Shown here: positions 1-23,173 of the stretch, piece after piece
How the letters are laid out: each line of letters opens with the position of its first letter
Numbering within the stretch: the stretch's first letter is position 1
Source: Kiritimatiellia bacterium
GTDB taxonomy: Bacteria > Verrucomicrobiota > Kiritimatiellia > RFP12 > JAAYLN01
Length of the DNA: 38,569 bases
Direction: 5' to 3'
Assembly: GCA_017509565.1 (NCBI GenBank)
Contig: JAFWPM010000034.1
Coordinates: 1 to 38,569, forward strand
The notes under the pieces: generated by a model
Database searches by the model: none
The model's input: the letters and a program-made list of their open reading frames with translations, nothing else
Told to the model about the DNA's origin: nothing
Position numbers and translations under genes: made by a program

Positions 1-624
1 CGGCTCGGCGCCCCGGTCGCGGGAGTGTCGCCGTGGGAAAAGCGCATAGGGGTGGCGCTTGACGGCCGGGGCGCCGCCGCATCGGAAACCGGCGGCAATC
101 GATCGCAATCGACGGCCATCGACAAAGCACGCGGCACCTTCGCCGTCGTCACGCCGCGCACCTGCGGAGGCTTCGCGGAGAGCGGGGCGCTGGAGTGCGG
201 GCCGCTTACCTTTGACCTCGACCTTCCGGGCGAGGCACTAAACAGACCCGCCGCCGTCTGGGCCTCTTCCCTCGACGGCGCGCCGCTGGAGGAATCGCGG
301 CGCATTCTCGTCGCGCACGTCACCGACGCGCGCAACACGGGTGCGGTCTTCGACACCGACGCCGCGCGCACCTGGCAGAAGCAGGGCCGCACACCGGCCC
401 TCGTCCGCCGCGGCCGCGCCGCCATCTCGCTTGCGCTCCACGGCGGCGCCGCGCCGGCGGTATACCGCCTCTGCCCCGCCGGCCGACGCATCGCCGAGGT
501 CGCCGCGTCCTGCCGCGAGGGCGGGCGCGAAGCGCCGCACTCGCGGATCACCGTCTCCTTCACCGCCGACACCGCCCTCGACCCTTCCTGCGCCACCATC
601 TTCTACGAAATCGTGCGGCGGTAG
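1..624 (+). CDS. C-terminal part of a GH5-like secreted glycoside hydrolase (5' end outside window)
   Basis: The frame is open from base 1 to a TAG stop at 622-624, so only about 207 C-terminal residues are present. It aligns along its whole length with the C-terminus of the large GH5-like gene at 12958-15846. Shared landmarks are GVSxW near the start, TPRTCGGFAE, the block RPAAVWA.SLDGAPLEESRR, and the identical ending PSCATIFYEIVRR. This part is the beta-rich domain after the catalytic barrel, so no catalytic residue is visible. Two short repeat elements lie in frame: a 10-bp triplet at 95-124 and a palindrome at 214-249. The linker before TPRTCGG differs completely in length and sequence from that of the paralogue. 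The next gene has its own promoter just downstream. The paralogy is certain; the enzymatic activity is not known. Confidence 0.8.
   Translation, partial: RLGAPVAGVSPWEKRIGVALDGRGAAASETGGNRSQSTAIDKARGTFAVVTPRTCGGFAESGALECGPLTFDLDLPGEALNRPAAVWASSLDGAPLEESRRILVAHVTDARNTGAVFDTDAARTWQKQGRTPALVRRGRAAISLALHGGAAPAVYRLCPAGRRIAEVAASCREGGREAPHSRITVSFTADTALDPSCATIFYEIVRR
95..124 (+). repeat. Triple 10-bp direct repeat inside coding sequence
   Basis: Three consecutive 10-mers, GCAATCGATC, GCAATCGACG and GCCATCGACA, lie in frame in the linker of the GH5-like fragment. They encode a stretch ending NRSQSTAIDKA. The same unit occurs three times in the intergenic palindrome at 18071-18100. The paralogous protein at 12958-15846 lacks it and carries a different element at this linker. 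Confidence 0.65.
214..249 (-). repeat. In-frame palindromic element, GNRA-loop family, copy 1
   Basis: Read on the minus strand it has the family frame: TGCC, then stem TCGCCC, loop GGAA, stem GGTCGA, then GGTC. There is one C/T mismatch in the 6-bp stem. The sense strand encodes DLDLPGEALNRP. The related gene at 12958-15846 has a copy at the same protein position (13345-13380), so this copy probably predates the duplication. Confidence 0.65.
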
Positions 625-635
625 CGTCCGCAGCC

Positions 636-664
636 ATGACGGAATGCCACGAATATGCTAGAAT
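636..664 (+). promoter_or_regulatory. Promoter of the GH50-like gene
   Basis: A -35-like ATGACG at 636-641, a 17-bp spacer and a -10 box TAGAAT at 659-664 preceded by TGC (extended -10). Transcription would start near 671, only about 4 bases before the ATG at 675, which predicts an almost leaderless mRNA. The promoter occupies the in-frame start at 636, which supports the later start. Confidence 0.55.
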
Positions 665-674
665 CATAGGCATT

Positions 675-3518
675 ATGAAGTTCACATCCACCATAGTCGC
701 ATCGTTCGCGCCATTGCTCGTCGCGCTTTCCACATCTTTCGCGCAAACCCCAGCCACCTGGGACTGCGATCCGGTCGCCTGGCGGGAAAACGGCGAAACA
801 CTTGAGGCAATCGGCTCGGGCTTCGCGCTTGCCCCCTGCGCCAAGGGCAGAAAGGCCGAAATCACGGCCCGCGTCACACCCGTCTCGACGGAATGCCCGG
901 AATACGCGACGATCGGCCTCGCCGTATTCGACGATCTCGAACACTTCTGGAAGCTTTCACTCGTCAAAAAGCCGGAATCGCGCGGCGGCGGCACCTTCTG
1001 CGAAATGAAGTGCCAGAGCGGCGGCACGTGGGCAGACGAAATCGACGGTTTCCGGCGCGTTGCGAACGAGGGCAGGGGCGACTGGAAGTGGGGGCGCACC
1101 TACGAAATGACGCTCTCGCTTTCGCCGGAGGCGGTCGAAGGCGCGATTCGCGACGCGGAGACCGGCGCCCTCGTGCGGCGTTTCCGCCTGGAAAACACCG
1201 GGAGCGCCGCGCCCTTCGCCGGACGTCCCGCGGTCTCCGCCACGGGCGACCTGCGCGGCCGCGCCGAAGTCGTCCGCCTTTCCGTAGGTGATGAAGTTCC
1301 GGACACCTGGCGGGTGTTCCCTGAATACCGTCCCGTCGGACTGGACACAGGGGTGCATGGCATGGCGACCGGGTTTTTCCATGTGGAAAGCATCGGGGGC
1401 GTCGAATGGGCCGTCGATCCCGTCGGGCGCGGCGTCATCCTCGCCGGCACCGACTGGTGCAACCCGCGCGGCTCCTACAGCCAGAAGCGCGGCTACAACC
1501 CCTACGAGCGCTTCGTCAAGGCGCACTACCCCTCCACGGAAGCCTGGGCCGCCGAAACTGCCAGCCGCCTGCGCGACTGGGGCTTCACGTGCCTGCCATG
1601 CGGCGGCGACGAAAGCCTCTACTACAAAACTCTCGCCCACGCGAACGCCGCCGACCGGCTCTACTTCTCGCACCGCCTCTGCCTCGGGACGGCCGACCCC
1701 GACTGGCGCATAGCCGAATACCGGCGCTCGCCATGCACCGCGCTGCCGAACGTCTTCCACCCGCAGTTCGAGGCGGCTTGCGACTGGTGGGCGCGCCAGC
1801 GCTGCGCCGGATGCAAGGACGACCCGTGGCTTCTGGGCTACTTCATCGACAACGAACTGGCCTGGTGGGGTGAGGTCTCCGAAAACAAGGCCGGCGGGGT
1901 CTTCGACCTCGTGGCGGGCAAGCCGGCGTCGCACCCGGCCAAGCGGGCGCTCCTGCGCTTTCTGTCCGAGCGTTTCAACGCCCCCGCGGACGCCGGCCTT
2001 ATCCGCAGGGCAGGCCCCGAGGACAAGCGGGCCTTCCTCCGCCTCGTCGCGGACCGCTACTTCGCCGTCACCACCGGGGCCATCCGCCGCGCCGACCCGA
2101 ACCACATGATCCTCGGCTGCCGCTTCGCGGGCGGCCCCAAGGGCGTCGATCCCGTCGTCCTGGAAACGGCCGGAAAATACTGCGACATCGTCTCGTTCAA
2201 CCACTACCCCTGGGCCGATCTCGACCGCAACGTAGTGCAGCAGTCCAAAGCCGACCCGACGCGCGTCCTCGACCTTTACCGCGAGGCGCACGACATCGCG
2301 AAGCGCCCGCTGTTCCAGACAGAGTGGAGCTTCCCGGCGCTGGACACGGGCCGCCCATGCACCTACGGCGCCGGGCAGCGCTTCCACACCCAGGCAGAGC
2401 GCGTCCAGGCGACGGAACTCTACGCCAAGACACTGCTCTCGCTGCCCTTCATCGTCGGCTACTCCTACTTCCGCTGGCTCGACCAGCCCGCCGAGGGCAT
2501 CAGCAAGTACTTTCCGGAAAACACGAACTACGGGCTCGTGAGCGAGGAGGGCGTCCCCTACAGGGAACTCACCGAAATGTTCGCGCGCGTCCAGGGGGAC
2601 GCCTTGCGCTGGCACGGGGCGCCGCCCCCCGAGGAGCGGGAGTCCCAGTCCGCGCCCGAACCTTCCGAGCGCGAGCAGTACCTCGCCGCCGCCCGCCCTG
2701 TGCCCGGAGCGGCCCGCCCTGTGCCCGGAGCGGAAGCTCCGGGTCCCGTCGCCTTCTCCCGCGACGGCGACGCCTGGGTGCTCTCCAATTCGCTCGTGCG
2801 CCTTTCCGGGCGCGTCGGCGGCAAGTACATGGCCGACGAGATCGCCTACCGGCCCGATGGCGACCCCCTCGCGGGGCCTCGCCCCGTCGGGCGCTGGGGG
2901 GCGCTGCTTCAGGGCGCCTCGGACAACATCCCGTACTGGGTGGACGTCTCGCGCGTGACGGACGTCTCGTTCTCGCGCGACGGCGCGACGGGCGTCGTCA
3001 CCGCCACGATCCGCGCCGAAGGCGGCGGGGGGAGGGAGGTGGCCGGCGGTTCGGCGCCGTCCGCGCTCGGCTTCGCTTTCACCCACCGACTTTCGCTTGC
3101 GCCCGGGACTCTCGATATCCTCGCGGAAATCGTCTCGCTCGAAAACACGGGTTCGGCGCCGATTGACGTCCGCTGCATCTTCATGCGCCCATTCGCAGTG
3201 CAGCGCGATCCCGTCGAATTCCGTTCCGTGCCGAATCTCTGGAAAGGCCCGGTCGAGGGCTTCTGGCTCCTCTCCGACGGCTCCCGCTGGGGCGTTTCCA
3301 CGCGCGATTCGCGGGTCCTGAAGGCGACGCTCTGGCGCAAGGACGGCGAAACGGCGCAGCACCCCGACGTGCGCTGCATGGAAGGCAATCCGTTCGTCCT
3401 CGCGCCCGGCGCAACGTATCGCCCGACGTCCCCGATCGGGGCAAGGATCAAGTTCCTGCCGCCAGACCCAAACGCCGACAATGGCCCGGTGTCCTCGTAC
3501 TCCGTTCTCGGACAGTGA
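675..3518 (+). CDS. Secreted GH50-like (beta-agarase-like) clan GH-A glycoside hydrolase
   Basis: A predicted exported endo- or exo-acting beta-glycosidase of about 947 residues. The start at 675 gives a good signal peptide, MKFTSTIVASFAPLLVALSTSFA, and fits the promoter at 636-664. An N-terminal beta-sandwich (about residues 25-220) is followed by FFHVESIGG.EWAVDP, the usual entry to agarase-like barrels. A TIM barrel then has YFIDNELAWW (acid/base Glu about 394) and FQTEWSF (nucleophile Glu about 550), ending with GYSYFRWLDQP. A C-terminal beta-sandwich follows. A palindromic repeat at 2691-2745 encodes the Pro/Ala linker between barrel and C-terminal domain. The stop overlaps the start of the carboxypeptidase gene (TGATG), so the two are probably co-translated. 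GH50 is the best family guess from motifs; GH42-like or an unclassified GH-A family is possible. Confidence 0.75.
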   Translation: MKFTSTIVASFAPLLVALSTSFAQTPATWDCDPVAWRENGETLEAIGSGFALAPCAKGRKAEITARVTPVSTECPEYATIGLAVFDDLEHFWKLSLVKKPESRGGGTFCEMKCQSGGTWADEIDGFRRVANEGRGDWKWGRTYEMTLSLSPEAVEGAIRDAETGALVRRFRLENTGSAAPFAGRPAVSATGDLRGRAEVVRLSVGDEVPDTWRVFPEYRPVGLDTGVHGMATGFFHVESIGGVEWAVDPVGRGVILAGTDWCNPRGSYSQKRGYNPYERFVKAHYPSTEAWAAETASRLRDWGFTCLPCGGDESLYYKTLAHANAADRLYFSHRLCLGTADPDWRIAEYRRSPCTALPNVFHPQFEAACDWWARQRCAGCKDDPWLLGYFIDNELAWWGEVSENKAGGVFDLVAGKPASHPAKRALLRFLSERFNAPADAGLIRRAGPEDKRAFLRLVADRYFAVTTGAIRRADPNHMILGCRFAGGPKGVDPVVLETAGKYCDIVSFNHYPWADLDRNVVQQSKADPTRVLDLYREAHDIAKRPLFQTEWSFPALDTGRPCTYGAGQRFHTQAERVQATELYAKTLLSLPFIVGYSYFRWLDQPAEGISKYFPENTNYGLVSEEGVPYRELTEMFARVQGDALRWHGAPPPEERESQSAPEPSEREQYLAAARPVPGAARPVPGAEAPGPVAFSRDGDAWVLSNSLVRLSGRVGGKYMADEIAYRPDGDPLAGPRPVGRWGALLQGASDNIPYWVDVSRVTDVSFSRDGATGVVTATIRAEGGGGREVAGGSAPSALGFAFTHRLSLAPGTLDILAEIVSLENTGSAPIDVRCIFMRPFAVQRDPVEFRSVPNLWKGPVEGFWLLSDGSRWGVSTRDSRVLKATLWRKDGETAQHPDVRCMEGNPFVLAPGATYRPTSPIGARIKFLPPDPNADNGPVSSYSVLGQ
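2691..2745 (+). repeat. 21-bp direct duplication plus palindromic element, GNRA-loop family, copy 2
   Basis: Two perfect 21-bp units (2691-2711, 2712-2732) run into a hairpin. The element frame is CCTGTGCC (2718-2725), stem CGGAGC, loop GGAA (2732-2735), stem GCTCCG, then GGTC (2742-2745). The perfect stem extends to 8 bp as CCCGGAGC/GCTCCGGG. It encodes the linker ARPVPGAARPVPGAEAPG between two domains. The stem differs from the other copies at several positions but stays fully paired. Confidence 0.7.
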
Positions 3519-4387
3519 TGAACATCTTCACAATCGGCATAGTGTCGATATCCTCGATTCTCCCGCGCGCCCAGTTGGACCTGGGCACGAACGCGCTTGT
3601 CCAGGCCGGGTACCGCGTGAAGGTCGCGCCGAACGTCGTCGGCCCGGCCGTCGCGCCCGCCGACGAGCGCGCCCGCCTGCTTGAGGAGTTCTGGCTCGAT
3701 CCGGAGATCGACCTGCTGCTCTTCTCGCGCGGCGGCGAAGGCGCCGCCGACGTGGTGCCGCTTCTCGACTGGGACGCCCTCCGCGCCCGCCCCGACCTCC
3801 CGGCCGTCGGCTTCAGCGACGTGACGGTCCTGCTAAACGCAATGCTGGAAAAGGGCGTAGGCCACCCCATTTCTGGTCCGATGCTCTCCTATGCCGGCCG
3901 CCTCACTCCCGAGGCGCGCGAGTGGTTCCGCGCCGTTCTTGCCGAAGCCCCGCTTCCGCCGGTGCGCCTCGATGTCCTGCACGCGGCCGGGGGAGGCGGC
4001 GCCTCGGGCCTCCCGATGGGCGGCCACCTCACGCGCCTGCACTGGCTCTGGCGGAACGGCCTGCTTCCCTCAGCCAAGGGCCGCGTCGTATTCGTGGAAT
4101 GCACGGCGAAATACCCGCCTTCGCAGGTGCGGCAGTGCCTTGAGGAACTGCGCGGCGGAGGGGCCTTCGCCGGAGCCTCCGCGGTCGTCCTCTGCGACTT
4201 CCGCCACACCGGCGCCGACCGCGCCGAGCTCGACGCCTTCCTCCCGGAGTTCGCGTCATCGCTGACCTGCCCCGTTTTCTCCGGATTCCCGTATGGGCAC
4301 ATTCCGGGCATCCTCGCCCTCGACTTCCGTCGCCACCTCGCAATCACGCCGGACGGCACCCTCGCCTGGCCGGCGCCGGCGCGATGA
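3518..4387 (+). CDS. ldcA: Muramoyltetrapeptide (L,D-) carboxypeptidase, peptidase family S66
   Basis: Predicted to remove the terminal D-alanine from murein tetrapeptides during cell-wall recycling, in the cytoplasm because no signal peptide is seen. The family's Ser-Glu-His triad is readable: Ser about 100 in VGFSDVT, Glu about 194 in VFVECTAKY, His about 261 in FPYGHIPG. The length of 289 residues is normal for S66. ATG at 3518 overlaps the upstream TGA by one base; a GTG at 3515 would add one residue. Its coupling to a secreted polysaccharide hydrolase is unusual. A peptide-antibiotic immunity role of the MccF type (also S66) is an alternative, but no biosynthetic genes are nearby. Confidence 0.85.
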   Translation: MNIFTIGIVSISSILPRAQLDLGTNALVQAGYRVKVAPNVVGPAVAPADERARLLEEFWLDPEIDLLLFSRGGEGAADVVPLLDWDALRARPDLPAVGFSDVTVLLNAMLEKGVGHPISGPMLSYAGRLTPEAREWFRAVLAEAPLPPVRLDVLHAAGGGGASGLPMGGHLTRLHWLWRNGLLPSAKGRVVFVECTAKYPPSQVRQCLEELRGGGAFAGASAVVLCDFRHTGADRAELDAFLPEFASSLTCPVFSGFPYGHIPGILALDFRRHLAITPDGTLAWPAPAR

Positions 4388-4468
4388 GCCGGGACGGCGC
4401 GAAATCCACATCCAACCTTAATCCCGAATGGAAACAATGAATGCCATTGTCATCCCATGTTAAAACGC

Positions 4469-4496
4469 TTGTGGAACGCTAGTGAATGAATACAAT
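4469..4496 (+). promoter_or_regulatory. Candidate promoter before the GDPD gene; also a shared 15-base motif
   Basis: TTGTGG (4469-4474), a 16-bp spacer and TACAAT (4491-4496) resemble a sigma-70-type promoter, with transcription starting near 4503. The motif CTTGTGGAACGC(T/C)AG at 4468-4482 recurs at 28560-28574, where no plus-strand gene follows. It may therefore be part of a dispersed repeat and not a promoter. Weakly supported. Confidence 0.3.
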
Positions 4497-4500
4497 CGAC

Positions 4501-4506
4501 AGGAGG
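4501..4506 (+). promoter_or_regulatory. Shine-Dalgarno AGGAGG that fixes a TTG start
   Basis: A full AGGAGG lies 5 bases before TTG at 4512. It favours this start over the in-frame GTG at 4482, which has no such site. Confidence 0.6.
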
Positions 4507-4511
4507 CCGCT

Positions 4512-5336: not shown

Positions 5337-5365
5337 CCATCGCCGCCGGAACTGTTTTTCTCCCA

Positions 5366-6613: not shown

Positions 6614-6615
6614 CG

Positions 6616-8670: not shown

Positions 8671-8683
8671 AGTCCTGTCCTTT

Positions 8684-11035
8684 TTAGAATAGGGAGCCCT
8701 TGACCGTCTCCTCGTCCCATCCGCGCGGCTTTTCGTCGGAAATAGCCTTGATCGCCTTCGAGGTCATCTGCTTGCCCCGCGCCGAAACGCCCTTCACCAG
8801 GACTTCGCCCGGCGCGAACAGCTGCTGGTTGACGCGCTGCCCCTTCGCCGGCTTGTATTTGACGTATAGCGACTCGGGCGTCCCCTCCGCGAAGTACGCG
8901 ACTTTGCTCTTGTCCGGCGCAAAGCTGTAGTCCTTGTTCAGGATGCATCCGCCGAACGAGAACCGCTTGATGTAGGTGAAGCCGAATTTCGGCTCCGTGT
9001 AGACCGCCGTGAACTGGCGCTCCTTGTCGAACACCTTGCAGTAGATCATGCCCTTGTCGATGAAGAACTTGTCCGGCGGCGACACCACCTTGTAGCGGCC
9101 GTCCTGCCATATCACGACGATCTTGTCGAGCGAAGAGCACTTGAACAGTTCCTCGCCGCCGCGAATCGCCGTCCCGATGTAGCCGTTCTCGCGGTCGATC
9201 TTGATGGACAGCTCGCTCGCCGTCAGCGCGCGGACTTCAATCTCCCCGAAGGGCGTTTCCGAAATCTGGCTGATGCGCGGGTACTTTTTGCCGTAGCGCC
9301 TGATGAGGTCCTTCAGATAGCGCACGGCGTATGCGCGAAGGTGCTTCAGGTTTTCGGCGACCTCGGCCTCCTCGGCCAGGATGCCCTCGATCTCCCTGCG
9401 GTTCTTCTCGATGTCGTAGCGGGAGATGCGCCTGATGCGGATCTGGAGCAGCTGCTCGACGTCGTCCAGCGTCACGTCGCGGCGGAGGCCCGGGCGGAAT
9501 GGCGCCAGGCCGTCCAGCACGGCCTGCTGGACCGCCTCGTAGGTCTCCTCCTCCTCGATGCGCTTGTAGATGCGCTCCTCGATGAATATCTGCTCAAGCG
9601 TCTTCGAGTGGAAGGCCGAGTCGAGTTCGCCGGCGCGGACCTCAAGCTGCCGCTTGAGGATGTCGAGCAGCAGGTTGGTGTTGACCTCCAGTATCTGCGG
9701 GACCGACATCTCGCATGGCCGGTTGTTCCACAGGACCACCGGGCGCGACGACAGCGAGACTTCGCAGTTCGTGAAGGCGTATAGCGCCTGGGTCACCCTG
9801 TCCTGGACTGCGCCGACGGAAAGAGTCAGCTCGATTTCGACCTTTTCTGCCGTCAGGTCGGTAATTTCGCGGACCTGCACCTTCTTCTTCGAGATGGCGT
9901 CCTCGATGCTCGCGATCAGCGACTCCGTGGTCTGGCCCCACGGGAGCGACGTTATCGCCAGCTTGTTCTTGTCGCGCGGCTCGATGGTGGCGCGCACCTT
10001 GATGCGGCCCGTGCCATCGGCGTATTCCGACACGTCCACGATGCCGCCGGTGATGAAGTCGGGGTAGACCTTGAAGGGCTTTTTCTGGATGATCGCGATC
10101 TGGGCCTCGATGAGCTCGTTGAAGTTGTGCGGGAATATCTCCGTGGAGAGCCCCGCCGCGATGCCCTTGACGCCCATCATCAGCAGAATAGGCACCCTTG
10201 CCGGGAGGATGATCGGCTCCTTGGCGCGGCCGTCGTAGCTTGGCGTGAAGGCGGTGATCTTTTCATCGAAGACCTCCCTGCGGGCGAGTTCGGTGAGGCG
10301 GCATTCGATGTAACGCGGGGCCGCGGCCTCGTGCCCGGTGAAGATGTTGCCGTAGTTGCCCTGGCCTTCGACGAGGTAGCGCATGTTCACCAGGTTGACG
10401 ATGGCCTCGTAGATGGAGGCGTCGCCGTGCGGGTGGTAGTGCATCGTGTCGCCGACGACGCCGGCGACCTTGCTGAAGCGGCCGTCGTCGGCTTCGCGCA
10501 GGGCGTGCATTATGCGCCGCTGCACCGGCTTGAGCCCGTCCTCCACGGTCGGGATGGCGCGGTTGCAGATGGTGTATGTCGCGAATTGCAGGTAGTTGCT
10601 GTCGATCAGGTCCTTGAGCGGGCCGTGGCCCGTGTGGCCTGGGGTGCGCCGCCCGGCCTGAAGGGCCGTTGCGTCATGTTGTGGTGGCGCGCCATCCCCC
10701 TCCGGTTCAGGCGCAGTGCGCCGCACGGCCTGAAAGGCCGTTGCGTCATGTTGTGGTGGCGCGCCCTCCCCCTCCGGTTCAGGCGCAGTGCGCCGCCCGG
10801 CCTGAAAGGCCGTTGCGTCATGTTGTGGTGGCGCGCCCTCCCCCTCCGGCTCAGGCGCTGGATCTTGGGCCGGCGCTGGCGTGGCAGCGGGGGTGCTCGG
10901 TGTGCCTTCGCGCGCGGGCGCCGCCCCCCCGGGTTCGCCGCCAGTGGAGCCGGGCGAAGTGTCGCCCTGCGCCTCCGCGAAGAGGTTTCCAAACAGGTCG
11001 TCCTGCGCGTCGCCGTTTTGGTCTTGCCTATTCAT
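8684..11035 (-). CDS. parC: DNA topoisomerase IV subunit A
   Basis: The DNA breakage-reunion subunit, which acts with ParE to decatenate chromosomes. The core begins about residue 136 (GHGPLKDLIDSNYLQFA). It has TVEDGLKPVQRRIMHA, the DNA-binding HYHPHGDASIYE, and the catalytic tyrosine about 242 in AAPRYIECRL. A coiled-coil tower region follows, then a reduced C-terminal beta domain. The length of 783 residues includes an unusual Pro/Glu/Ala-rich N-terminal extension of about 132 residues, more than half of it three near-identical 24-residue repeats (DNA at 10640-10861). The start overlaps the end of parE by 8 bp. The ParC/ParE assignment over GyrA/GyrB rests on the similarity of both subunits to the Bacteroidetes-type topoisomerase IV pair and on the short C-terminal domain. 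Confidence 0.88.
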   Translation of the reverse strand: MNRQDQNGDAQDDLFGNLFAEAQGDTSPGSTGGEPGGAAPAREGTPSTPAATPAPAQDPAPEPEGEGAPPQHDATAFQAGRRTAPEPEGEGAPPQHDATAFQAVRRTAPEPEGDGAPPQHDATALQAGRRTPGHTGHGPLKDLIDSNYLQFATYTICNRAIPTVEDGLKPVQRRIMHALREADDGRFSKVAGVVGDTMHYHPHGDASIYEAIVNLVNMRYLVEGQGNYGNIFTGHEAAAPRYIECRLTELARREVFDEKITAFTPSYDGRAKEPIILPARVPILLMMGVKGIAAGLSTEIFPHNFNELIEAQIAIIQKKPFKVYPDFITGGIVDVSEYADGTGRIKVRATIEPRDKNKLAITSLPWGQTTESLIASIEDAISKKKVQVREITDLTAEKVEIELTLSVGAVQDRVTQALYAFTNCEVSLSSRPVVLWNNRPCEMSVPQILEVNTNLLLDILKRQLEVRAGELDSAFHSKTLEQIFIEERIYKRIEEEETYEAVQQAVLDGLAPFRPGLRRDVTLDDVEQLLQIRIRRISRYDIEKNRREIEGILAEEAEVAENLKHLRAYAVRYLKDLIRRYGKKYPRISQISETPFGEIEVRALTASELSIKIDRENGYIGTAIRGGEELFKCSSLDKIVVIWQDGRYKVVSPPDKFFIDKGMIYCKVFDKERQFTAVYTEPKFGFTYIKRFSFGGCILNKDYSFAPDKSKVAYFAEGTPESLYVKYKPAKGQRVNQQLFAPGEVLVKGVSARGKQMTSKAIKAISDEKPRGWDEETVKGSLF
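10640..10861 (-). repeat. 72-bp tandem repeat (about 3 copies) within parC
   Basis: Units begin at 10654, 10726 and 10798, spaced exactly 72 bp and differing at a few positions. Each contains a hairpin CGGCCT-GAA-AGGCCG; the first copy has GAAGGGCCG in place of GAAAGGCCG. Each encodes 24 residues with the core PPQHDATAFQAGRR. A similar hairpin core, GCCTGAAAAGGC, occurs at 20939-20950 in the alpha-galactosidase gene. Confidence 0.9.
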
Positions 11036-12905: not shown

Positions 12906-12957
12906 CCAAAAATCCGGGCGGCCATGCGCGGCCGGGCGATTTGGCGCGAGAATGGCG

Positions 12958-15846
12958 CTACCGTCGCACGATTTCGTAGAAGATGGTGGCGCAGGAGGGA
13001 TCGATGGCGGTGTCGGCGGTGAAGGAGAGGAGGGTCGCCCGCGAGTGCGGTCCTTCGCGCCCGCCCTCGCGGCAGGACGCGGGGACCTCGGCAATGCGCC
13101 CGCCAGTGGGGGAGAGGCGGTAGACGGTAGGGGCGGCGGTGCCGCCGGCTGGGGAGAGCCGGAGGGAGATGGCGGCGCGGCCGCGGCGGACGAGCGGCGG
13201 GGTCGCGCCCTGCTCGATCCAGGAGCGCACCTCGGGGCAGTCGAAGACGGCGCCGGAGTTGGCGGCGTCGGTGACGTGCGCGACGAGGATGCGCCGCGAT
13301 TCCTCCAGCGGGGCGCCGTCGAGCGATGTCGCCCAGACGGCGGCCGGCCTGTCCTGCGCCTCGCCGGCAACGGCGAGGTCAAAAACCAGGGCCCCGCACT
13401 CCAGCGCCCCGCCTTCGGCGAAGCCGCCGCAGGTGCGCGGCGTGATTGCCCGGAACGAGCCGTCTTCGCGACGGGGCGCCGCCCCGCCGCCAGAAGTGAA
13501 AACCGCTGCATCGGGCGTACCTTGCTCGCAGATGGCAGGCTCCGATGGCGCGGCTTGCCCGCTCGTGGCTGTCGTTTTCACTTCTGCCGGTGCGGCTGTG
13601 CCGCCTCGGATTTCGAGCCGCGCCCCGACGCGGCACCCCCACGCGCTGACCCCTTTGCGCGCGGTGCCGAACTGGCGCGCCGCGGCCGTGGTCCGGAGCT
13701 GCGCTTCGCGCCACGTTTCGGCGCTTTCGGTTTCGGGCGGAAGCGGCGGCATGTCGCCGCGCAGGAAGAGGGCGAGCGTGGCGTATTCGCTTGCGCGCTG
13801 GATCGGGTCGCCGTGCAGGTCGAAGAACCGGATCGGCACGGAGCCGGGCGCCTCGACGCCCTGCTTGTTGTGGCTCCACGCGAAGCGCCAGAGCCCGCTC
13901 CAGCCTTGCAGCGCGGCGAGCGAGCCCGCGACGAGGCCGCTTGCGGCGCGGTGGCGCCCTGGCGCGGCCCAGTTCCACTCGGTTATGCAGAAGGGCTTGC
14001 CGAAGACGCGCCGCCACGCTGCGCTCGGGACGCCGCCGTTCACGACGAGCGGGTTTTCGGCTTCGATGACGGTCGGGAACTGCCAGTTCTTGCCGAGAAA
14101 GCGCGGGTGGTAGGCGTAGAAGTGCGTGTCAACGTAGCCGAAGGCCTGCATCGGCACGAGGTACTGCCCCGGATAGTAGCCGGCGTTGAGGTTGGAGAGC
14201 GGGGCGCGGCAGCCCAGCGCGCGCACTTCCGCTTCGAGGCGCGCGAAGAGCGTCGCCTCGCGCTCTGCCAGGAAGCGCGCCAGATTGCCGGACGCTGCGC
14301 CGTAGACATCGGTGGGGAGCGGCGCGCCGCCGCTCCATTCCGCCCACGCCTCCGCGAATCCGGGGCATTTCTTCAGGCCGTCCACGCCGTCGCGGCCGAG
14401 GTTGCCTTCGTTGATGAACCCGAGGGCGCAGAGCGCCGGCTCTTCGGCGAGAGTCCGGCCCGTGTAGCGGTTTTTGTGGCCGAGGAAGAGGCGCGTCCAC
14501 GCGACGAGGTTGGAGTACGCCGGCTCGTAGAAGGCGCACATCAGCTTGAACTCGCGGTCTGGAACCGTGCCGGGCCTGTCGATGCCGATGGCGCGCCAGG
14601 TCATGCCCTTCGTGCGCGAGACGAACAGGTCGGTGGTGATGTAGAGCCCGTGGCGGATGCAGGCGGCGACGAGGGCGTCGAACTTCTCCCAGTTCCGGTC
14701 CGGCACGTCGAGCGCCGCGCCGTCGCCGCGCGGCTTTGCGCCCGAGAGGAAGGCCTCGTGGTGGTGGATGCGCACGGAATTGAAGCCCATGCGCGCAAGA
14801 TTCGCGGCGAAGCGGTCCGCGTTTTCGGGCTCGGGGACGTTCGCGCCGTGCACGAGGTTGACGCCGCAGAAGCGGACTTCCTCTCTGGGACGCCCCTCGA
14901 ACTCAAAGCGCTCGCCGACGGCCACGACGCGGCCGAATTTCCCGGCCGGCTCATGGTGCGGCACGACGGCCGAGAAGTCGAGCGCCGAACCGGGCTCGAT
15001 CCAGTCAGTGCCTGGCGCGGGCGGCGGAAGGGGAATCCAATCCGGGCCGGCTTCGACGCGGACGGTTTCGGGGATGCTGAGGGAAAGCGGTGCGTTGGGC
15101 ACCCGGAAGATCACCCGCGTCCCGTATTCCCGCCCGGCCTCCATTTCGTCCGCCGCGAGAATGATGCGCAGCGAAACGTTCTGCGAACCCCAGCGGATGT
15201 TGTCCTGCACGAGGATTTCCTGCGGTTCGGAAAACTCCAGCGTGAGCCACGGGGAAATGGATGTGGCGATGGCGCCATCGCCATCGTGCGACGGCGATGG
15301 CGCCGTCGCCACATCATCCACCGCACCGAGGAACTCGAATCTCCGCACCTTGCCGGAGAAGATGTGCGGGGAGGGCGGGATTGCTGTGCCGACGGCAATA
15401 TGGGTGTCGTCGGCGCGAAGGCCGCCGGGGATGGCTGCCTTCGGGACCGTGCACTGGATGCCGGCGAAGCGCGGGGAGCCGTTTCGGCTGGCCGTCACGC
15501 TCCATTCGGCTTCGATTCCGCCGTCGCCCGTCTCGCGGAAATCGGCGCGACCGTTGAGGACAAGCCCGAAGTCGGCGGCGTTTTCCGTGGCGGGGCTGCA
15601 CTCGATCACGAACGCGCCGCCGGGCGTCCCGGAAGAGCCGTGGGGCTTCCAGTTGGAATCGAAGGACCAGGGAACGAACGTCGCACCGCCCGGCAGCGAG
15701 AGCCCGCCGCCGAAAGTGGCGGCGGCCCGGGCGAGTCCGGGGGAGGGGACGGTTTCGCCAGCTGGCCGCATCCCGCTCCCGGACGCGGCGGCCGCAAGGA
15801 GAAGCGCGGCGATGGATTTTGCAAGGCGTTTGCGGATGTCTCTCAT
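12958..15846 (-). CDS. Secreted GH5-like (clan GH-A) glycoside hydrolase, multidomain
   Basis: A 962-residue exported hydrolase. The N-terminus, MRDIRKRLAKSIAALLLAAA, is a clear signal peptide. Residues about 40-290 form a beta-sandwich. The barrel begins at VRFCGVNLVHGANVPE and MGFNSVRIHHHEA; acid/base Glu about 480 is in GFINEGN and nucleophile Glu about 623 in FCITEWNW. A C-terminal beta domain follows and is paralogous to the fragment at 1-624. Three palindromic elements are embedded in frame: 15260-15315 (residues about 178-196), 13491-13586 and 13345-13380. The start overlaps the stop of the GH16 gene (ATGA), so translation is probably coupled. GH5-type fold is confident; a cellulase, mannanase or other specificity cannot be decided. 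Confidence 0.8.
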   Translation of the reverse strand: MRDIRKRLAKSIAALLLAAAASGSGMRPAGETVPSPGLARAAATFGGGLSLPGGATFVPWSFDSNWKPHGSSGTPGGAFVIECSPATENAADFGLVLNGRADFRETGDGGIEAEWSVTASRNGSPRFAGIQCTVPKAAIPGGLRADDTHIAVGTAIPPSPHIFSGKVRRFEFLGAVDDVATAPSPSHDGDGAIATSISPWLTLEFSEPQEILVQDNIRWGSQNVSLRIILAADEMEAGREYGTRVIFRVPNAPLSLSIPETVRVEAGPDWIPLPPPAPGTDWIEPGSALDFSAVVPHHEPAGKFGRVVAVGERFEFEGRPREEVRFCGVNLVHGANVPEPENADRFAANLARMGFNSVRIHHHEAFLSGAKPRGDGAALDVPDRNWEKFDALVAACIRHGLYITTDLFVSRTKGMTWRAIGIDRPGTVPDREFKLMCAFYEPAYSNLVAWTRLFLGHKNRYTGRTLAEEPALCALGFINEGNLGRDGVDGLKKCPGFAEAWAEWSGGAPLPTDVYGAASGNLARFLAEREATLFARLEAEVRALGCRAPLSNLNAGYYPGQYLVPMQAFGYVDTHFYAYHPRFLGKNWQFPTVIEAENPLVVNGGVPSAAWRRVFGKPFCITEWNWAAPGRHRAASGLVAGSLAALQGWSGLWRFAWSHNKQGVEAPGSVPIRFFDLHGDPIQRASEYATLALFLRGDMPPLPPETESAETWREAQLRTTAAARQFGTARKGVSAWGCRVGARLEIRGGTAAPAEVKTTATSGQAAPSEPAICEQGTPDAAVFTSGGGAAPRREDGSFRAITPRTCGGFAEGGALECGALVFDLAVAGEAQDRPAAVWATSLDGAPLEESRRILVAHVTDAANSGAVFDCPEVRSWIEQGATPPLVRRGRAAISLRLSPAGGTAAPTVYRLSPTGGRIAEVPASCREGGREGPHSRATLLSFTADTAIDPSCATIFYEIVRR
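13345..13380 (+). repeat. In-frame palindromic element, GNRA-loop family, copy 3
   Basis: CCTGCGCC (13353-13360), stem TCGCCG, loop GCAA (13367-13370), stem CGGCGA, then GGTC. The stem is perfect. Against the copies with TCGCCC-GGAA-GGGCGA, the loop-closing pair has flipped from C-G to G-C, a compensating double change. It is antisense to its host gene, which reads LAVAGEAQDRPAAVW here. Confidence 0.65.
13491..13586 (+). repeat. Inverted repeat with 13-bp perfect arms, inside coding sequence
   Basis: Arms CAGAAGTGAAAAC (13491-13503) and GTTTTCACTTCTG (13574-13586) enclose 70 bp. In frame it encodes part of the linker that ends AAVFTSGGGAAPRRED, just before the conserved TPRTCGG. The paralogue at 1-624 has no such element there but a 10-bp triplet repeat instead. 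Confidence 0.7.
15260..15315 (+). repeat. Long hairpin with 23-bp arms inside coding sequence
   Basis: Arms 15260-15282 and 15293-15315 pair with a single mismatch around a 10-base loop. The left arm itself contains an 18-bp perfect palindrome, GGCGATGGCGCCATCGCC (15265-15282). In frame on the minus strand it encodes DVATAPSPSHDGDGAIATS within the N-terminal beta-sandwich of the GH5-like protein. Confidence 0.85.
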
Positions 15847-16748: not shown

Positions 16749-16815
16749 GACCAAAAACCTGAAAGGGCTTGCAGGCCCGAATCATCGCGGGACTGCGGAG
16801 AAAAGGCAAGAAACG

Positions 16816-18039: not shown

Positions 18040-18065
18040 GGTTGAAATTTCCGGAGTTTTGGTTT

Positions 18066-18100
18066 CGAATGCAGTCGATTGCAATCGATTGCATTCGGCA
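18066..18100 (-). repeat. Intergenic palindrome built from three 10-bp units
   Basis: A 32-bp palindrome (18066-18097) with one mismatched pair, lying between the two SUMF1 genes. It also parses as three 10-mers: GCAGTCGATT, GCAATCGATT and GCATTCGGCA. It could be an operator, a transcript-processing hairpin or a dispersed repeat. The similarity to 95-124, inside a gene, favours a dispersed repeat. Confidence 0.6.
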
Positions 18101-18104
18101 TTAT

Positions 18105-19553
18105 TTATCTCACGACCAGCACGAAGGCGAGGTCGGTCGCCGTGTCGATGTAGCTGTCGGCGAGGGCTTCCGAGCCGAGTCGCCATCCGGCGAGCGTCGC
18201 GGCGGGGCGCGTTTCGAGGAACCCAACCTCGGAGTCGCCGAAGCCGCGCTGCGCGCCCTGCGCCGCCTGGGCGGCGTCGCCCTCGTCGGTCTCCACCACG
18301 ACACGGAAGCCGTTGATTTCCGTTTGGGCGTTCGGCACGTTTTGCGTGTCGCTGTGCCGCCGATAGTAGGAATTGCAGGCGGATGCGTTTAGCGTGTACG
18401 CGCCGCCGCGGGAAACGCGGAGCGTCCCGCTTGTGGCACCGACCGGATCGGTCGCATCGTCGACGGAATACGCCCCGTACCAGTCACGGCAGAATTCCAG
18501 GACGTTGCCGTAAAAATCGTAGAAGTCCCAGTCGCTCGGCTTCAATTTGGCGACAGGGTGCGGAACCCCTTTCGCGTTCGCCTGACCCCAGCCGAGCGCC
18601 GCGTAGCCGTTGTTCGCGCTGGCGCTGCCGTCGTTGAGTTCGTCGCCGGAATGTCCGGCTCGGCAGGCGTATTCCCACTGCGCTTCGGTGGGGAGATCGA
18701 ATTGGAGCGTCGTTTTGTTGCGGAGGCGCGCGATGACGCGGTTGTCGTTGCCGATGTCGTCCTGGTTTTCGCCGGGCCAGTTCGTGCCGCGGAACTGGAC
18801 ATAGTTCACGAGCGTGACGGGATACGCCTCCTTGCCTTCGAAATCGTCTTTGCCGTTCGGGTACTCGTTGCGGAGGTAGACGTACTGCGCGCGCGTCACG
18901 GGCACGACGCCGCAGTAGAAATCGCGCGAGAGCGTGACGTTGTGGACGGGTTCGCAACTGTCCGCTCTAGTGTCGCCGTTGTCGTAGCCCATCGCGAAGG
19001 TCCCGGCCGGGACGCGGCGGAGCCAGAGCTCCGTCGTGTAGAAGGCGGGGCTGTTGATGTCGGGCTTGCAGGCGGTGTATTGGACGGGCCAGTAGGTGGA
19101 GTCCTTGCCGCGCGAGAGATCGACGACCATGTAGAGGCCCTCGAAGTGGTTCGTGGCGAGGGCGGTCACGCGGACGGCGGCGTCCGTGAGGCCGACGTTC
19201 GGGAGGTCGGCGCGGGCCTTCCACACAATCGACTTTCCGGTGCCGGGTTCGACGAGCGAGGCGGTGTCGGCGGGGGTGGTGGAGACGTCGCCGATGACGC
19301 TCTTCACGCGCGTGGCGCCGACGGAGACGCCGTTGGTGAGGACGTCGAGCGAGACGAAGGCCGGTTCGCCGTCCGACGTGACAAGGTCGTAGGTGACCTT
19401 GACGTCGTGCGAGGCGGCGTCCTGCGTGAAGGCCACGTTCGAGACCGAGACCGTGACCGTGGCGGATGCGGCGCCGGCCGCGATTGCGGCAAAGGCGGCA
19501 GCCATGCCGGTGCGCGGGCGGTTCGCCCGCAGAATTGCCCGAATATTGTTCAT
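18105..19553 (-). CDS. Secreted SUMF1 (FGE-like) domain protein 2 with C-terminal extension
   Basis: 482 residues. The ATG at 19553 is fixed by AGGAGGAG 6 bases upstream and gives the signal peptide MNNIRAILRANRPRTGMAAAFAAI..ASA. It has the same N-terminal beta-domain as the next gene (VSNVAFTQDAASHDVKVTYDL), then an FGE-like domain: VPAGTFAMGYDNG, YCGVVPVTRAQYVYL, LPTEAQWEYACRAGHSGDELNDG, FYDFYGNVLEFCRDWYG, VSRGGAYTLNASACNSYYRRH and GFRVVVE, where such domains normally end. About 60 further residues with no FGE resemblance follow, ending DTATDLAFVLVVR. Only one Cys lies in the region of the FGE active-site pair, so formylglycine activity is doubtful. It is the first gene of the SUMF1-SUMF1-GH16-GH5 unit. 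Confidence 0.82.
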   Translation of the reverse strand: MNNIRAILRANRPRTGMAAAFAAIAAGAASATVTVSVSNVAFTQDAASHDVKVTYDLVTSDGEPAFVSLDVLTNGVSVGATRVKSVIGDVSTTPADTASLVEPGTGKSIVWKARADLPNVGLTDAAVRVTALATNHFEGLYMVVDLSRGKDSTYWPVQYTACKPDINSPAFYTTELWLRRVPAGTFAMGYDNGDTRADSCEPVHNVTLSRDFYCGVVPVTRAQYVYLRNEYPNGKDDFEGKEAYPVTLVNYVQFRGTNWPGENQDDIGNDNRVIARLRNKTTLQFDLPTEAQWEYACRAGHSGDELNDGSASANNGYAALGWGQANAKGVPHPVAKLKPSDWDFYDFYGNVLEFCRDWYGAYSVDDATDPVGATSGTLRVSRGGAYTLNASACNSYYRRHSDTQNVPNAQTEINGFRVVVETDEGDAAQAAQGAQRGFGDSEVGFLETRPAATLAGWRLGSEALADSYIDTATDLAFVLVVR

Positions 19554-19559
19554 TATTTT

Positions 19560-19582
19560 CTCCTCCTGTGCCAGATATTCTA
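19560..19582 (-). promoter_or_regulatory. -10 box and Shine-Dalgarno for the SUMF1-GH16-GH5 unit
   Basis: On the minus strand TAGAAT (19577-19582) is followed by AGGAGGAG (19560-19567) and the ATG at 19553, predicting a leader of about 17 bases. The -35 region (CCGACT at 18-bp spacing) is poor, so an activator such as the adjacent XylR-type protein may be needed. Confidence 0.5.
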
Positions 19583-19664
19583 ACGCAGAAGGAGGAGGAA
19601 AGTCGGAATTTTGAGAAAAATATTTTGCGGGTACAGGCGGAGTTCCATTGGGGCGTTCCAAATT

Positions 19665-20828
19665 CTATTTCAGCCAGGAGTTGCGCTTGCGCCATTCGCG
19701 CATGGACATTCCGTAGCGGGAGCGGAAGAGCTTGTCGAGAGCGCTGTCGCTCCCAAAGCCGCACATTCCCGCGATTGCGCCGATGGCGGTATCGGTTTTA
19801 GCGAGGAGCGTGGAGGCCTGTTCCATCCGCACATGGATGATTTCGTCGAGGACTGAATGGCCGAGTGCTTCGCGGAATCGGAGGTCGAAGAGGCGGCGGG
19901 ACCCGGGGAAGCGGGCGGCGAGGTCGCGGGCGGTGAGGCCGTTGCAGGCTTCGCGCCGGATCATCTCCAGCGCCTTGAGGATGTGCGGTTCGCGCCGGCC
20001 GCGGCCGCGGGTCGATTCGCGCCGTTCGACGAACAGCGGGCCGACCCGCTCGACGTGGCGCGGCGCGCAAGTGCCGCGCATCCTATCGTCCAGCAGCCGC
20101 GCCGCGATGTAGCCGACGCGTTCGAAGTCGAAGAGCAGCCGCGAGACGTTCTCCGGCGGCGGGGTGTCGGTTTCCTCGCTTCCGGCGGTGCAGAATATCG
20201 CCAGGTCGCGCGGGACGTTGCGGGACGCCGCGCGCGCCGCGTCGAGGATGTTCCTCGCGGTCGGCCCCTGCACGGCGAAGATCGCGCATCCGCGCGGCAG
20301 CCCCGCCACCCATTCGCGGATGCGCGCGATGTAGGATTCGACGCTTTCGCCCATTTCCGCCTCCAGGACGATGCACCTCTTCCCGCACGCTTCGACGCGC
20401 CTTTTGAAGGCCGCTATGCGGTATGCGCTCCATTCGTGCGGACGAACGAAGCCCACGGCGGCGTAGCAGGACGGCTTAAGGGCGGAAAGCTCCCGAAGCG
20501 CGGTGTCCGCCACAGCGTCGAAGTCGATGATGACACGGGGGGCGTCGCCGCAGAGCGCCCCGTCGAGAACGTCGATGTACGCGACCGGGACGCGCCCGAA
20601 CAGGGTCGGCGGGAGGTCGTCCATGCGGCCGTCGCCCTCAACTATGCAGCCGGCCGGCCCGTGGCGCGCGATGATGCCCCCGATCATCGAGGCGCGCGAA
20701 TCCTGGCGCCGGAGTTCCTCCACCTCCCAGCCGCGCGCGGCGGCGTAGCGCCGCATGCCTGCCAGCCTCGCGAGCTGGCAGGTGTCGCCCGAAATCATGT
20801 GAAGATAGAGGATTTTGGGGCGGCTCAC
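19665..20828 (-). CDS. XylR-type transcriptional regulator: PBP1-like sensor plus AraC HTH
   Basis: 387 residues with a GTG start at 20828. The first strand, PKILYLHMISGD, is the usual opening of these PBP1-like sensors, which supports the GTG. The ligand domain runs to about 270, with CYAAVGFVRPHEWSAYRIAAF and RLLFDFERVGYIAARLLD. The AraC domain covers about 285-385, with HILKALEMIRREACNGLTARDLAARF and the second HTH IGAIAGMCGFGSDSALDKLFRSRYGMSMREWR. There is no N-terminal HTH. It sits 8 bp after the alpha-galactosidase gene, so it is probably the last gene of the esterase-galactosidase operon, and about 110 bp upstream of the SUMF1-GH16-GH5 unit. It may regulate either or both. Confidence 0.88.
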   Translation of the reverse strand: MSRPKILYLHMISGDTCQLARLAGMRRYAAARGWEVEELRRQDSRASMIGGIIARHGPAGCIVEGDGRMDDLPPTLFGRVPVAYIDVLDGALCGDAPRVIIDFDAVADTALRELSALKPSCYAAVGFVRPHEWSAYRIAAFKRRVEACGKRCIVLEAEMGESVESYIARIREWVAGLPRGCAIFAVQGPTARNILDAARAASRNVPRDLAIFCTAGSEETDTPPPENVSRLLFDFERVGYIAARLLDDRMRGTCAPRHVERVGPLFVERRESTRGRGRREPHILKALEMIRREACNGLTARDLAARFPGSRRLFDLRFREALGHSVLDEIIHVRMEQASTLLAKTDTAIGAIAGMCGFGSDSALDKLFRSRYGMSMREWRKRNSWLK

Positions 20829-20836
20829 GGCGGGGG

Positions 20837-23173
20837 TCAGCTCCGGACGGTGGAGAGTTCCAGCACGAACGAGTCGTCGCCGGGGCCGAGGTCGAAGGGG
20901 ATGCCGGCGGCGGCGAGCGCGGCGCCGGAGAACGCCCTGCCTGAAAAGGCCGTGTGGGGGTTCTGTGCCTCGCCCGGAAGGACGGGTCTGTCCTGTGCCT
21001 CGCCCGGAAGGGCGAGGTCTATCTCCCGGATGCGGTAGCGCCGGTCCGGATCGAGGCCGAGTAGGCGCAGCGGCGCAAGGCGGCCGTCGCTGGCCTTGCG
21101 CGAGAGGCCGCAGACCGTGACGACGGCGCGTCTGCGGTCCGGCGCGACGAACAGCAGCGCCGCGTGGTCGCCCTCGTAGGGGGAGGCGAGCCGGTAGGTG
21201 TCGCCGCCCTGTATTACCGGGCGCAGCCGCTTGTACTCCGCGACGCGCCGGCGCGCGTAGGCAATTTCCCCTTCCGAGAGTTCTTCTGGCCGGAGTTCGA
21301 TGCCGAGGCGGCCGGAAAAGGCCACGTCGAAGCGGTACTTGAGGGAAGAGGAGCGGCGCGTGTGGCGGTTAGGCGAGGCGGTGACGTGCGCAGCCATGGC
21401 GCAGGCGGGGAGGAACTGGCCCCAGCCCCACTGGATGAGGGCGCGTTGCTGCGCCCCGGTGTTGTCCGAGGCCCAGAATTCGTCGGCGAATGCGAGCGCC
21501 CCGAAATCGGTGCGGCCGCCGCCGCTCGCGCACGACTGGAAGACGATGCGCGGGTGTGCGGCGCGGAGGCGGGCGAGGATTTCGTATAGTCCGGCGGCGT
21601 AGTCGAACCAGAGATTGCCCTGCCGCTCCGGTCCTAGCCAGGGCGAGGCGAAGTTGGCAATTTCGGCGTTGGCGTCGATTTTCACGTAGGAGAGGCCGGG
21701 GACGGCGCGGATGGCGTCGTCAACCGCGCGGAAAACGGCATCGCGCACGGCGGGGTTGGGCAGGTCGAGCACGACCTGGCCGCCGCCGCGCTGGAGGCGC
21801 CGCGGACGGCCCGGCTCCCGCAGGGCCCAGTCGGGGTGGTTGCGCAGCAGTTCGCTTTCGACGTCGGCCATCTCCGGCTCGAACCAGAGGCCGAGCTTGA
21901 GGCCGCGCTTCTTCGCCTCCCGGGCTAGCGGCGCGAGTCCGCCGGGGAACTTCGCCGGATCGTGCGTCCAGTCGCCGAGGCCGTGCCCGGCGTCGTTGCG
22001 CGCGAAGGCGCCGCGGCCGAACCAGCCGTCGTCCACCACGAAGCATTCCGCGCCGAGGGCCCTGGCTCCGTCCATCATCGCGACGAGGCGCTTTTCCGAA
22101 AGGTCGAACTTGACGCCTTCCCACGAATTGAGGACGATTGGGCGCGGGGCGCCCGCATGCGGCATGAGGTGGCGGCGCGCCCAGGCGTGGAGGGCGCGCG
22201 AGGCGGCGCCCTTGCCGCGCTCCGACCACGAAAAGACGAATTTCGGAAGAGCCAGCGTCCGGCCCGGCTCAAGGACGTAGGGGCCGGAGAGGTTTGCGGC
22301 TCCGGCCGAAACGCGAAGCTCGTGCGACCACTCGTGGCGGAAGCGCATTTCCCACGCGCCGCTCCAGCAGAGCGCGCCGGCGAGGACCGCGCCGCTCTCC
22401 TCCCGCGCCGGTGCCGGTCCGACCGAGAGCATGAACGCCGGGGCGTTCTCCCAGGAATCGTGGACTCCGCTGCGGGCGCCGAGGACGACCTCGCGTCCGC
22501 GCAGCAGTTCGTCCTCCGCGACGTTCGCCTCGCTCGCCCAATGGCCGGAGAGCGAGAGCAGGTGGAACCTGTCGCCAAGCCCAGTAGTTTCGAGGCAGAA
22601 TGAATCCATGCGCGACAGCGCGACCGGCCCCTCCTCATCGTGGCGCAGCTCGACCCATGTCTCGAAGACGTCGCAGTCCGCGTGCGCGACGAAGTGCTGC
22701 ACGGCCGTGAACGACGGATGCGCCTTGTCGGCGTATGTGATTGCGACGTGGCTTCCTTTAGCCGCAAAGGGCGCAGGGTTCCCAAGGGAACTATCTGACT
22801 GCGAGCCAACTTTGCGCCCATTGCGTTCTTTGCGGCTGGAATTATCGCATGCGATTCCCGTACACGTCCAGTCCACCGAGCAGTCGCCGTCCGCGTGGCG
22901 CACCTGGAGCGCGCCGCGGGAGTTGCCGAGCGCGAAGCCGTTCTGCCCGCGCGTCGAGCCGAACGCGGGGTATGTCTCCGCCGTGCCGGCGGCGAGGTGG
23001 TTGCAGGCATACGGGCGGGCGGCGGCGAGGACGGCCAGCTCATCGGGATCGCCGCCCTTCGCGCCGAGGTGGGCGAAAGCCCAGACGTCGCCCCGCCTTG
23101 CCAGGACAAGCAGCGTGTCCGGCGTTTCAAGGCAAATCGTATTATCCCCTTTCATTTGGCGTCGAACCGTCAT
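20837..23173 (-). CDS. Alpha-galactosidase, GH36 family
   Basis: Predicted to remove alpha-1,6-galactose from galactosides such as raffinose or galactomannan side chains. 778 residues: an N-terminal beta-supersandwich to about 330, then the barrel with FVVDDGWFGRG, WTHDPAKFPGGL, GLKLGLWFEPEM, nucleophile Asp about 500 in YVKIDAN (most GH36 have KWD), CASGGGR, and acid/base Asp about 570 in WASDNTGAQQR. No signal peptide is seen, so cytoplasmic action is likely. Two repeat elements are embedded in frame: 22760-22837 (residues about 111-141) and 20939-21019, near the C-terminus. The ATG at 23173 overlaps the esterase stop by 4 bp (ATGA); an ATG six codons on is an alternative. Confidence 0.9.
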   Translation of the reverse strand: MTVRRQMKGDNTICLETPDTLLVLARRGDVWAFAHLGAKGGDPDELAVLAAARPYACNHLAAGTAETYPAFGSTRGQNGFALGNSRGALQVRHADGDCSVDWTCTGIACDNSSRKERNGRKVGSQSDSSLGNPAPFAAKGSHVAITYADKAHPSFTAVQHFVAHADCDVFETWVELRHDEEGPVALSRMDSFCLETTGLGDRFHLLSLSGHWASEANVAEDELLRGREVVLGARSGVHDSWENAPAFMLSVGPAPAREESGAVLAGALCWSGAWEMRFRHEWSHELRVSAGAANLSGPYVLEPGRTLALPKFVFSWSERGKGAASRALHAWARRHLMPHAGAPRPIVLNSWEGVKFDLSEKRLVAMMDGARALGAECFVVDDGWFGRGAFARNDAGHGLGDWTHDPAKFPGGLAPLAREAKKRGLKLGLWFEPEMADVESELLRNHPDWALREPGRPRRLQRGGGQVVLDLPNPAVRDAVFRAVDDAIRAVPGLSYVKIDANAEIANFASPWLGPERQGNLWFDYAAGLYEILARLRAAHPRIVFQSCASGGGRTDFGALAFADEFWASDNTGAQQRALIQWGWGQFLPACAMAAHVTASPNRHTRRSSSLKYRFDVAFSGRLGIELRPEELSEGEIAYARRRVAEYKRLRPVIQGGDTYRLASPYEGDHAALLFVAPDRRRAVVTVCGLSRKASDGRLAPLRLLGLDPDRRYRIREIDLALPGEAQDRPVLPGEAQNPHTAFSGRAFSGAALAAAGIPFDLGPGDDSFVLELSTVRS
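20939..21019 (+). repeat. Composite palindromic elements in the GH36 gene, GNRA-loop family copies 4 and 5
   Basis: Copy 5 is CCTGTGCC (20992-20999), stem TCGCCC, loop GGAA (21006-21009), stem GGGCGA, then GGTC (21016-21019), perfectly paired. Copy 4 (about 20961-20988) has the same left half but one C/A mismatch in the stem. A further hairpin, GCCT-GAAA-AGGC (20939-20950), resembles the core of the parC 72-bp unit. In frame they encode LPGEAQDRPVLPGEAQNP. Confidence 0.75.
22760..22837 (+). repeat. Inverted repeat with inner hairpin inside the GH36 gene
   Basis: Outer arms AGCCGCAAAGGGCGCA (22760-22775) and TGCGTTCTTTGCGGCT (22822-22837) pair at 14 of 16 positions. Inside lies GTTCCC-AA-GGGAAC (22778-22791). 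It encodes a Ser/Lys/Arg-rich insertion (residues about 111-141, including NSSRKERNGRKVGSQ) in the N-terminal sandwich. Confidence 0.7.

Follow-up and report, generated by a model that had tools for sequence, protein, structure and literature searches.

Why does the same short palindrome, with arms that change together, recur inside at least four genes of one stretch of bacterial DNA? The stretch, hereafter the window, is a 38,569-nucleotide contig (JAFWPM010000034.1) of a Kiritimatiellia bacterium, and the original prediction, made from its letters alone, described five copies of a palindromic element in it. I performed a computational analysis of this element in its own 3.2-Mb genome (G000) and in three relatives belonging to another family of the same order (G018, G022, and G050). 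In summary, the copies are very probably a non-autonomous single-strand DNA element resembling the repetitive extragenic palindromes (REPs) and served by its own transposase of the HUH/Y1 type, similar to the REP-associated tyrosine transposases (RAYTs).

Reading 51 loci of the four genomes gave 111 copies that have the box and pair at 7 or 8 of the 8 stem positions. The unit is exactly 30 nt in length and consists of a 10-nt box (CTGTYCTG[T/C]G), an 8-bp stem of the form CC-N6/N6'-GG, and a 4-nt loop. All of the 82 exact hairpins have an 8-bp stem and a 4-nt loop starting with G and ending with A, with neither the loop nor the stem letters prescribed. Since the third loop position is A in 61 of them, C in 17, and G in 4, the loop is GNNA, and the GNRA loops of the original prediction were not borne out. 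RNA would prefer GNRA, while the GNNA loop matches the cGNNAg type of stable DNA tetraloop. The left arms comprise 30 distinct six-letter words, 95% of the stem cells are paired, and both sides are altered in 7 of the 8 pairs. The claim that the pairs change together was thus confirmed, with a covariation score of 0.591 versus 0.134 in the shuffled control and at most 0.18 in the slid control. There are two subtypes, one with a box ending in GTG and a GGNA loop (93 copies) and the other with a box ending in GCG and a GCAA loop (13 copies); the exceptions number 3 and 0 (93/0/3/13; p 2e-14). The foot of the stem is CTGTYCTG[T/C]G in all alignments; neither a GTAG or GT[AG]G tag nor a CGTC tag stands there, and the consensus has no CGTC at either end. 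The 30-nt core corresponds to 10 codons, and none of its six frames contains a forced stop.

Is the hairpin a cis-acting RNA structure for mRNA stability, attenuation, or protein binding, selected in place? The perfect covarying stem and a stable tetraloop class would suit such a role. This explanation is nevertheless very improbable, because the copies in genes are used almost equally in sense and antisense (36 and 34), the loops include GGCA and GCCA, which fall outside the RNA GNRA rule, unpaired changes persist at shared sites, and the element has no match in Rfam.

A RAYT-type (Y1) partner, which the original prediction had proposed to look for, was found as a divergent RAYT-like gene embedded in element arrays. 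The ordinary Y1 genes were rejected as the partner, since PF01797 finds seven in the genome and many in the relatives, none of them flanked by element copies. The partner was recognized by reading the genes within element clusters, its Pfam E-value being only 0.049. It encodes a protein of 392-416 residues in G000 (contig C119), G018, and G022, and lies between element arrays on both sides in all three genomes. An HUH motif (MPDHxHF) is followed by YLRDNP, with 58 residues from the HUH to the tyrosine, and both motifs align with those of the recognizable Y1 proteins of the genome. The NCBIfam model REP_Tyr_transpos (NF047646) matches the three proteins with E-values of 5.6e-8, 3.9e-6, and 3e-6, all below the curated cut-off. 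A sequence search of the PDB found nothing significant, while the top 30 PDB fold matches of an AlphaFold model (pLDDT 48) are all Y1 transposases, including the REP-bound TnpAREP (4er8), none of which reached E 0.001. The dN/dS ratio of the transposase is 0.18-0.26. The gene itself holds in-frame copies of the element at two linker sites. Each genome has one to five mutually divergent genes of this family; the own genome carries one of each of two kinds, C119 in the GGNA clade and C19 in a GCNA clade. The protein has a C-terminal extension of about 200 residues, for which a Pfam search gave no match. In one such gene (L264:4574-5776), the conserved extension at residues ~240-390 (SPCVSDGEREIARRAFEAGASVIALRNMGFSPLYKPGGKLFDQTANGKLLLLAP) is, by eye, reminiscent of DprA/SLOG-like domains. 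As a separate observation, some of the Y1 genes belonging to other families are accompanied by a different hairpin, AAGGGG-TCTGT-CCCCTT. The hairpin upstream of the Y1 genes at L241, L242, and L244 (TTAAGGGG-TCTGT-CCCCTTAA) has the letters GGTCTGTCC in common with element array junctions, perhaps by chance.

Do the element and this transposase belong together? In ten low-copy genomes, 23 of the 26 copies lie within 1.5 kb of a transposase gene, where 0.036 are expected, and among 288 genomes of the class the transposase occurs in 21 of 26 element-positive genomes versus 15 of 262 negative ones (p 7e-18), both counts being made without regard to shared ancestry. At 31 transposase loci, the box with an exact 8-bp hairpin was found 74 times versus 0-2 times in shuffled loci. 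With the search then fixed, except for admitting C at the end of the box, 20 new transposase loci were examined. The prediction held in 16 of them, with 37 matches in 74 kb versus 4 in 298 kb at control loci, and two of these four look like real copies in the own genome, G000. Furthermore, over 51 members of the transposase family, the loop class (GGNA, GCNA, GAAA, CGNG, TTNT, and others) follows the transposase tree with 8 changes versus a shuffled minimum of 23, in a test with 44 tips and 8 classes in which six loop labels came from a looser or manual reading. Thus, the loop tracks the transposase and not the RNA GNRA rule.

How do the copies behave at orthologous sites? The GH36 gene of the window has two units in G000 and only one in the 89%-identical G050 orthologue, which is exactly 30 nt shorter and lacks the unit at 20958-20987; no recognizable copy was seen in the other GH36 orthologues. 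The gene at 636-3518 has an 88%-identical G050 orthologue (L323) that lacks the copy at 2714-2743, whereas G018 (L273) has this copy together with another half unit. Orthologues lacking a copy, whose comparison had been suggested in advance, thus include the G050 counterparts of the GH36 gene (one unit fewer) and of the gene at 636-3518. One orthologous site differs by 300 nt, or ten 30-nt units, and a 57-nt composite is present in the own genome and absent from G050. G018 and G022, which are 94% identical, complement each other at two sites within the transposase gene, each site being filled in one genome and empty in the other. Two other repeats were seen in these relatives. At L280:3860-3970 and L265 (G022 and G018), a ~33-nt tandem in-frame repeat beside the elements encodes the peptide AGRMPALPGAS, has the hairpin GCGGGC-ATCCT-GCCCGC, and is possibly another element family. 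At L281:3700-3800 (G022), GGCCGGC-TGACA-GCCGGCC and related palindromes lie in or beside an element copy and are absent from the G050 orthologue.

At 49 shared sites, whose pairs are partly non-independent, the flanks diverge by 5.1%, and the stems show 19 single-arm changes and 13 compensated double changes. The doubles are about 37 times as frequent as expected from independent changes (~0.1% expected per pair) and are clustered in blocks, while the single-arm changes occur at about half the flank rate. From these two features, the constraint is probably exerted during copying; stems tend to be exchanged or re-templated whole, and their pairing seems to count more at that moment than later. 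In-place compensatory selection as the sole source of the covariation is unsupported, because single-arm changes persist and the doubles come in blocks. Since template switching can generate blockwise compensated changes (PMC8794818), one may ask whether the copies are passive repeats, which arose locally and spread by template switching, slippage, gene conversion, and gene transfer, the transposase gene being merely another host. The tandem-unit differences between orthologous sites and the 13 blockwise doubles are what such a process would give. It leaves unexplained, however, the dispersal to dozens of unrelated genes, the single copies at the transposase gene in low-copy genomes, and the loop that follows the transposase tree, and I consider it improbable.

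Where do the copies lie with respect to genes? Within predicted genes, and in frame with them, there are 70 of the 111 copies, a fraction that is approximate because the gene caller was home-made and its codon usage was trained on genes of the window; the remaining copies include ones outside genes. The genic copies use the sense frame +1 (34 copies, C[SP]VPxxExxG), the antisense frame 0 (18, PGTSVPGTxQ), the antisense frame 1 (16, ALPGEAQ[DN]), and the sense frame 0 (2), and none of the 70 is in the two frames encoding Arg-rich peptides. Length differences at orthologous sites are nearly all multiples of three, whereas arrays that seem to lie outside genes have spacings of 31 and 41 nt; the triplet rule thus looks like coding selection. 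Conservation of an ordinary peptide or low-complexity linker might be suspected, since CPVPGTEVPG, ALPGEAQD, and PGTSVPGTGQ are linker peptides that reappear in paralogues. But the use of four frames over both strands, the intergenic copies, the hairpin covariation, and the absence from close orthologues leave this explanation with next to no probability; copies in several frames and outside genes in themselves refute conservation at the protein level. The original prediction of a palindromic element acting at the nucleotide level, like REPs and the Rickettsia palindromic elements (RPEs), and not at that of the peptide, is supported by the two orientations, the three main frames, the intergenic copies, and the empty orthologous sites.

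How widespread is the element? A covariance model, as had been suggested for finding further copies, marks 55 places at E<=0.1 in the own genome, about 40 of which are clear, and a pattern search with up to one mismatch gives 30 matches versus 5 with the reversed pattern. The model finds at least 61 copies in G018, at least 48 in G022, and at least 38 in G050, and no copy in 40 of 59 relatives. At a stricter cut, 26 of the 288 class genomes are positive. In a scan of 84,980 species genomes, full pairing occurs only in Kiritimatiellae, Verrucomicrobia, Victivallales, or metagenome-assembled genomes from the gut. Pattern matches in other phyla (2-6 of 8 pairs) and four matches in viral contigs (all 4-5 of 8 pairs) were dismissed as chance.

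Several observations weigh against an element served by its own transposase. Five element-positive genomes have no detected transposase of the family, and G050 retains at least 38 copies and the neighbouring array, although its orthologous locus lacks the transposase gene and none turned up in the rest of its 87%-complete assembly. Recognizable Y1 genes of other families stand without flanking elements, and the fold model of the transposase is weak at pLDDT 48. No clean target-site signature was seen at the element sites; some empty sites could be deletions, one of them flanked by GCCGGG repeats, and copies are often conserved between species. In addition, the copies are mostly intragenic (70 of 111), whereas REPs are extragenic, and they lack GTAG and CGTC.

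How would a transposase-served element work? I infer that the transposase moves the element and reads its box and loop, in the following order of events. The enzyme most likely recognizes single-stranded DNA in which the 5' box (about CTGTYCTG[T/C]G) is followed by an 8-bp hairpin, whatever its letters, with a loop specific to the clade. It would cut this DNA and join it elsewhere. Because only the shape, the box, and the loop would matter, the stem letters could drift freely between copies so long as the arms match at copying. Insertions into protein linkers may survive in either orientation, in those frames whose peptide is not rich in Arg, since the 30-nt core has no forced stop. Local arrays would then grow and shrink via tandem duplication or slippage.

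The known REP/RAYT systems (REPtrons) also have a short hairpin and a cognate HUH/Y1 enzyme that copies flank; they have head-to-head pairs too, and one genome may hold several families, each served by an enzyme of its own (PMC6006769, PMC8266576). In group 3 REPs of S. maltophilia, the processed unit is an 8-bp perfect palindrome with a recognized loop, and there is more tolerance in the GTAG motif (PMC8266576); the present element would resemble these REPs most closely in its working. In-frame REP copies inside tnpAREP are known in subclass 2.4 (PMC6006769), and REPs within tnpAREP and other genes without frame breaks have precedent (PMC6006769, PMC3733652). The transposase has the Y---NP signature of class 2 TnpAY1 (YLRDNP; PMC6006769). 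TnpAY1 subclasses 2.1 and 2.3 share this signature and a long C-terminal domain, but are without an identified REP (PMC6006769). REP subfamilies with alternative complementary stem residues are known, and the 30-nt core, of which the own genome has about 40 clear copies, fits the 20-40 nt palindrome in many copies that is called a REP. On the other hand, REPs carry GT[AG]G at the stem foot, whereas the present element has a 10-nt box, more stem variation, and a loop class varying by enzyme clade, and its enzyme has a long C-terminal extension, unlike REP/RAYT enzymes. Since it has no GT[AG]G/CGTC tag and lies mostly within genes, the element was not filed as a canonical REP.

RPEs are likewise palindromes inserted in frame in many unrelated proteins, and are longer than 30 nt. 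They are tagged with CGTC (PMC3733652). The present 30-nt core has another box and a linked transposase, and is set apart from RPEs by tag and description. The small dispersed repeats (SDRs) of Nostoc, reportedly described by Elhai et al. in 2008, are said to be 21-27 nt hairpins with compensatory changes and nested and tandem copies, and are alike in these respects. SDRs are not known to have an enzyme, nor a box or sequence related to those of the present element. IS200/IS605 elements have an enzyme of the Y1 family acting on subterminal hairpins; no element ends were found that bracket the present transposase gene as one transposing unit, and the copies far outnumber the gene.

In the window, all five predicted sites exist with corrected extents, and the box-hairpin pattern gives 8 matches at up to two mismatches versus 1.8 expected. 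The copy at 216-245 (minus strand; GTG/GGAA; CTGTTTAGTG-CCTCGCCC-GGAA-GGTCGAGG; 41.6 bits with covariance model R1) lies antisense and in frame in the open reading frame at 1-624 (plus strand), a gene fragment extending past the contig end. On the plus strand, a full copy at 2714-2743 (CCGCCCTGTG-CCCGGAGC-GGAA-GCTCCGGG; sense; PVPGAEAPG) is immediately preceded by a 21-nt half unit at 2692-2712, with the box, left arm, and GG but no right arm; equivalent half units occur in other genes and species. The copy at 13349-13378 (plus strand; CTGTCCTGCG-CCTCGCCG-GCAA-CGGCGAGG), antisense in the gene at 12958-15846 (minus strand, 962 aa), is of the GCG/GCAA subtype, the others being GTG/GGAA. In the GH36 gene (20837-23173, minus strand), a decayed tandem copy at 20958-20987 is followed by a full copy at 20988-21017 (CTGTCCTGTG-CCTCGCCC-GGAA-GGGCGAGG; 55.5 bits; ALPGEAQD), both on the plus strand and antisense. 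Of the stems, the one at 20958-20987 pairs at only 6 of 8 positions and the one at 216-245 at 7 of 8, which corrects the prediction.

As for the host genes, the GH36 label is sound (alpha-galactosidase; Pfam Melibiase, E 3e-98), while the genes called GH5-like and GH50-like get no Pfam family. The gene at 636-3518 (plus strand, 960 aa) belongs to a large paralogous family with 14 matches in the own genome and similar numbers in four relatives, whose variable linkers often contain elements. The 962-aa gene is a paralogue of the fragment at 1-624, and the copies at 216-245 and 13349-13378 occupy the same site in the two genes, with the closing pair changed coordinately; either the element was replaced in place, or two insertions occurred at one point. 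Elsewhere in the window, three 72-nt tandem copies (10644-10859; 3 x 24 residues) lie in a DNA gyrase/topoisomerase IV subunit A gene (8684-11035, minus strand), and the octamer TTGAAAGG is repeated in tandem about nine times between two genes (25706-25802).

Taken as a whole, the best reading is that the system is a new REP/RAYT variant of Kiritimatiellae-type gut bacteria, outside any described family. The odds lean slightly towards a new subclass of RAYTs in the Kiritimatiellae lineage with a modular DNA code, in which a shared 5' box and an indifferent stem are combined with a loop that specifies the enzyme clade by lock-and-key co-evolution, in a stop-free 30-nt core built to survive in genes. 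In vitro work has shown for a handful of RAYTs how they select and disseminate their palindromes. The ~50 enzymes with cognate elements amount to a natural specificity experiment, in which the loop tracks the enzyme and the stem does not, and in these bacteria short mobile DNA repeatedly adds 10-residue linkers to enzymes, its own transposase included.

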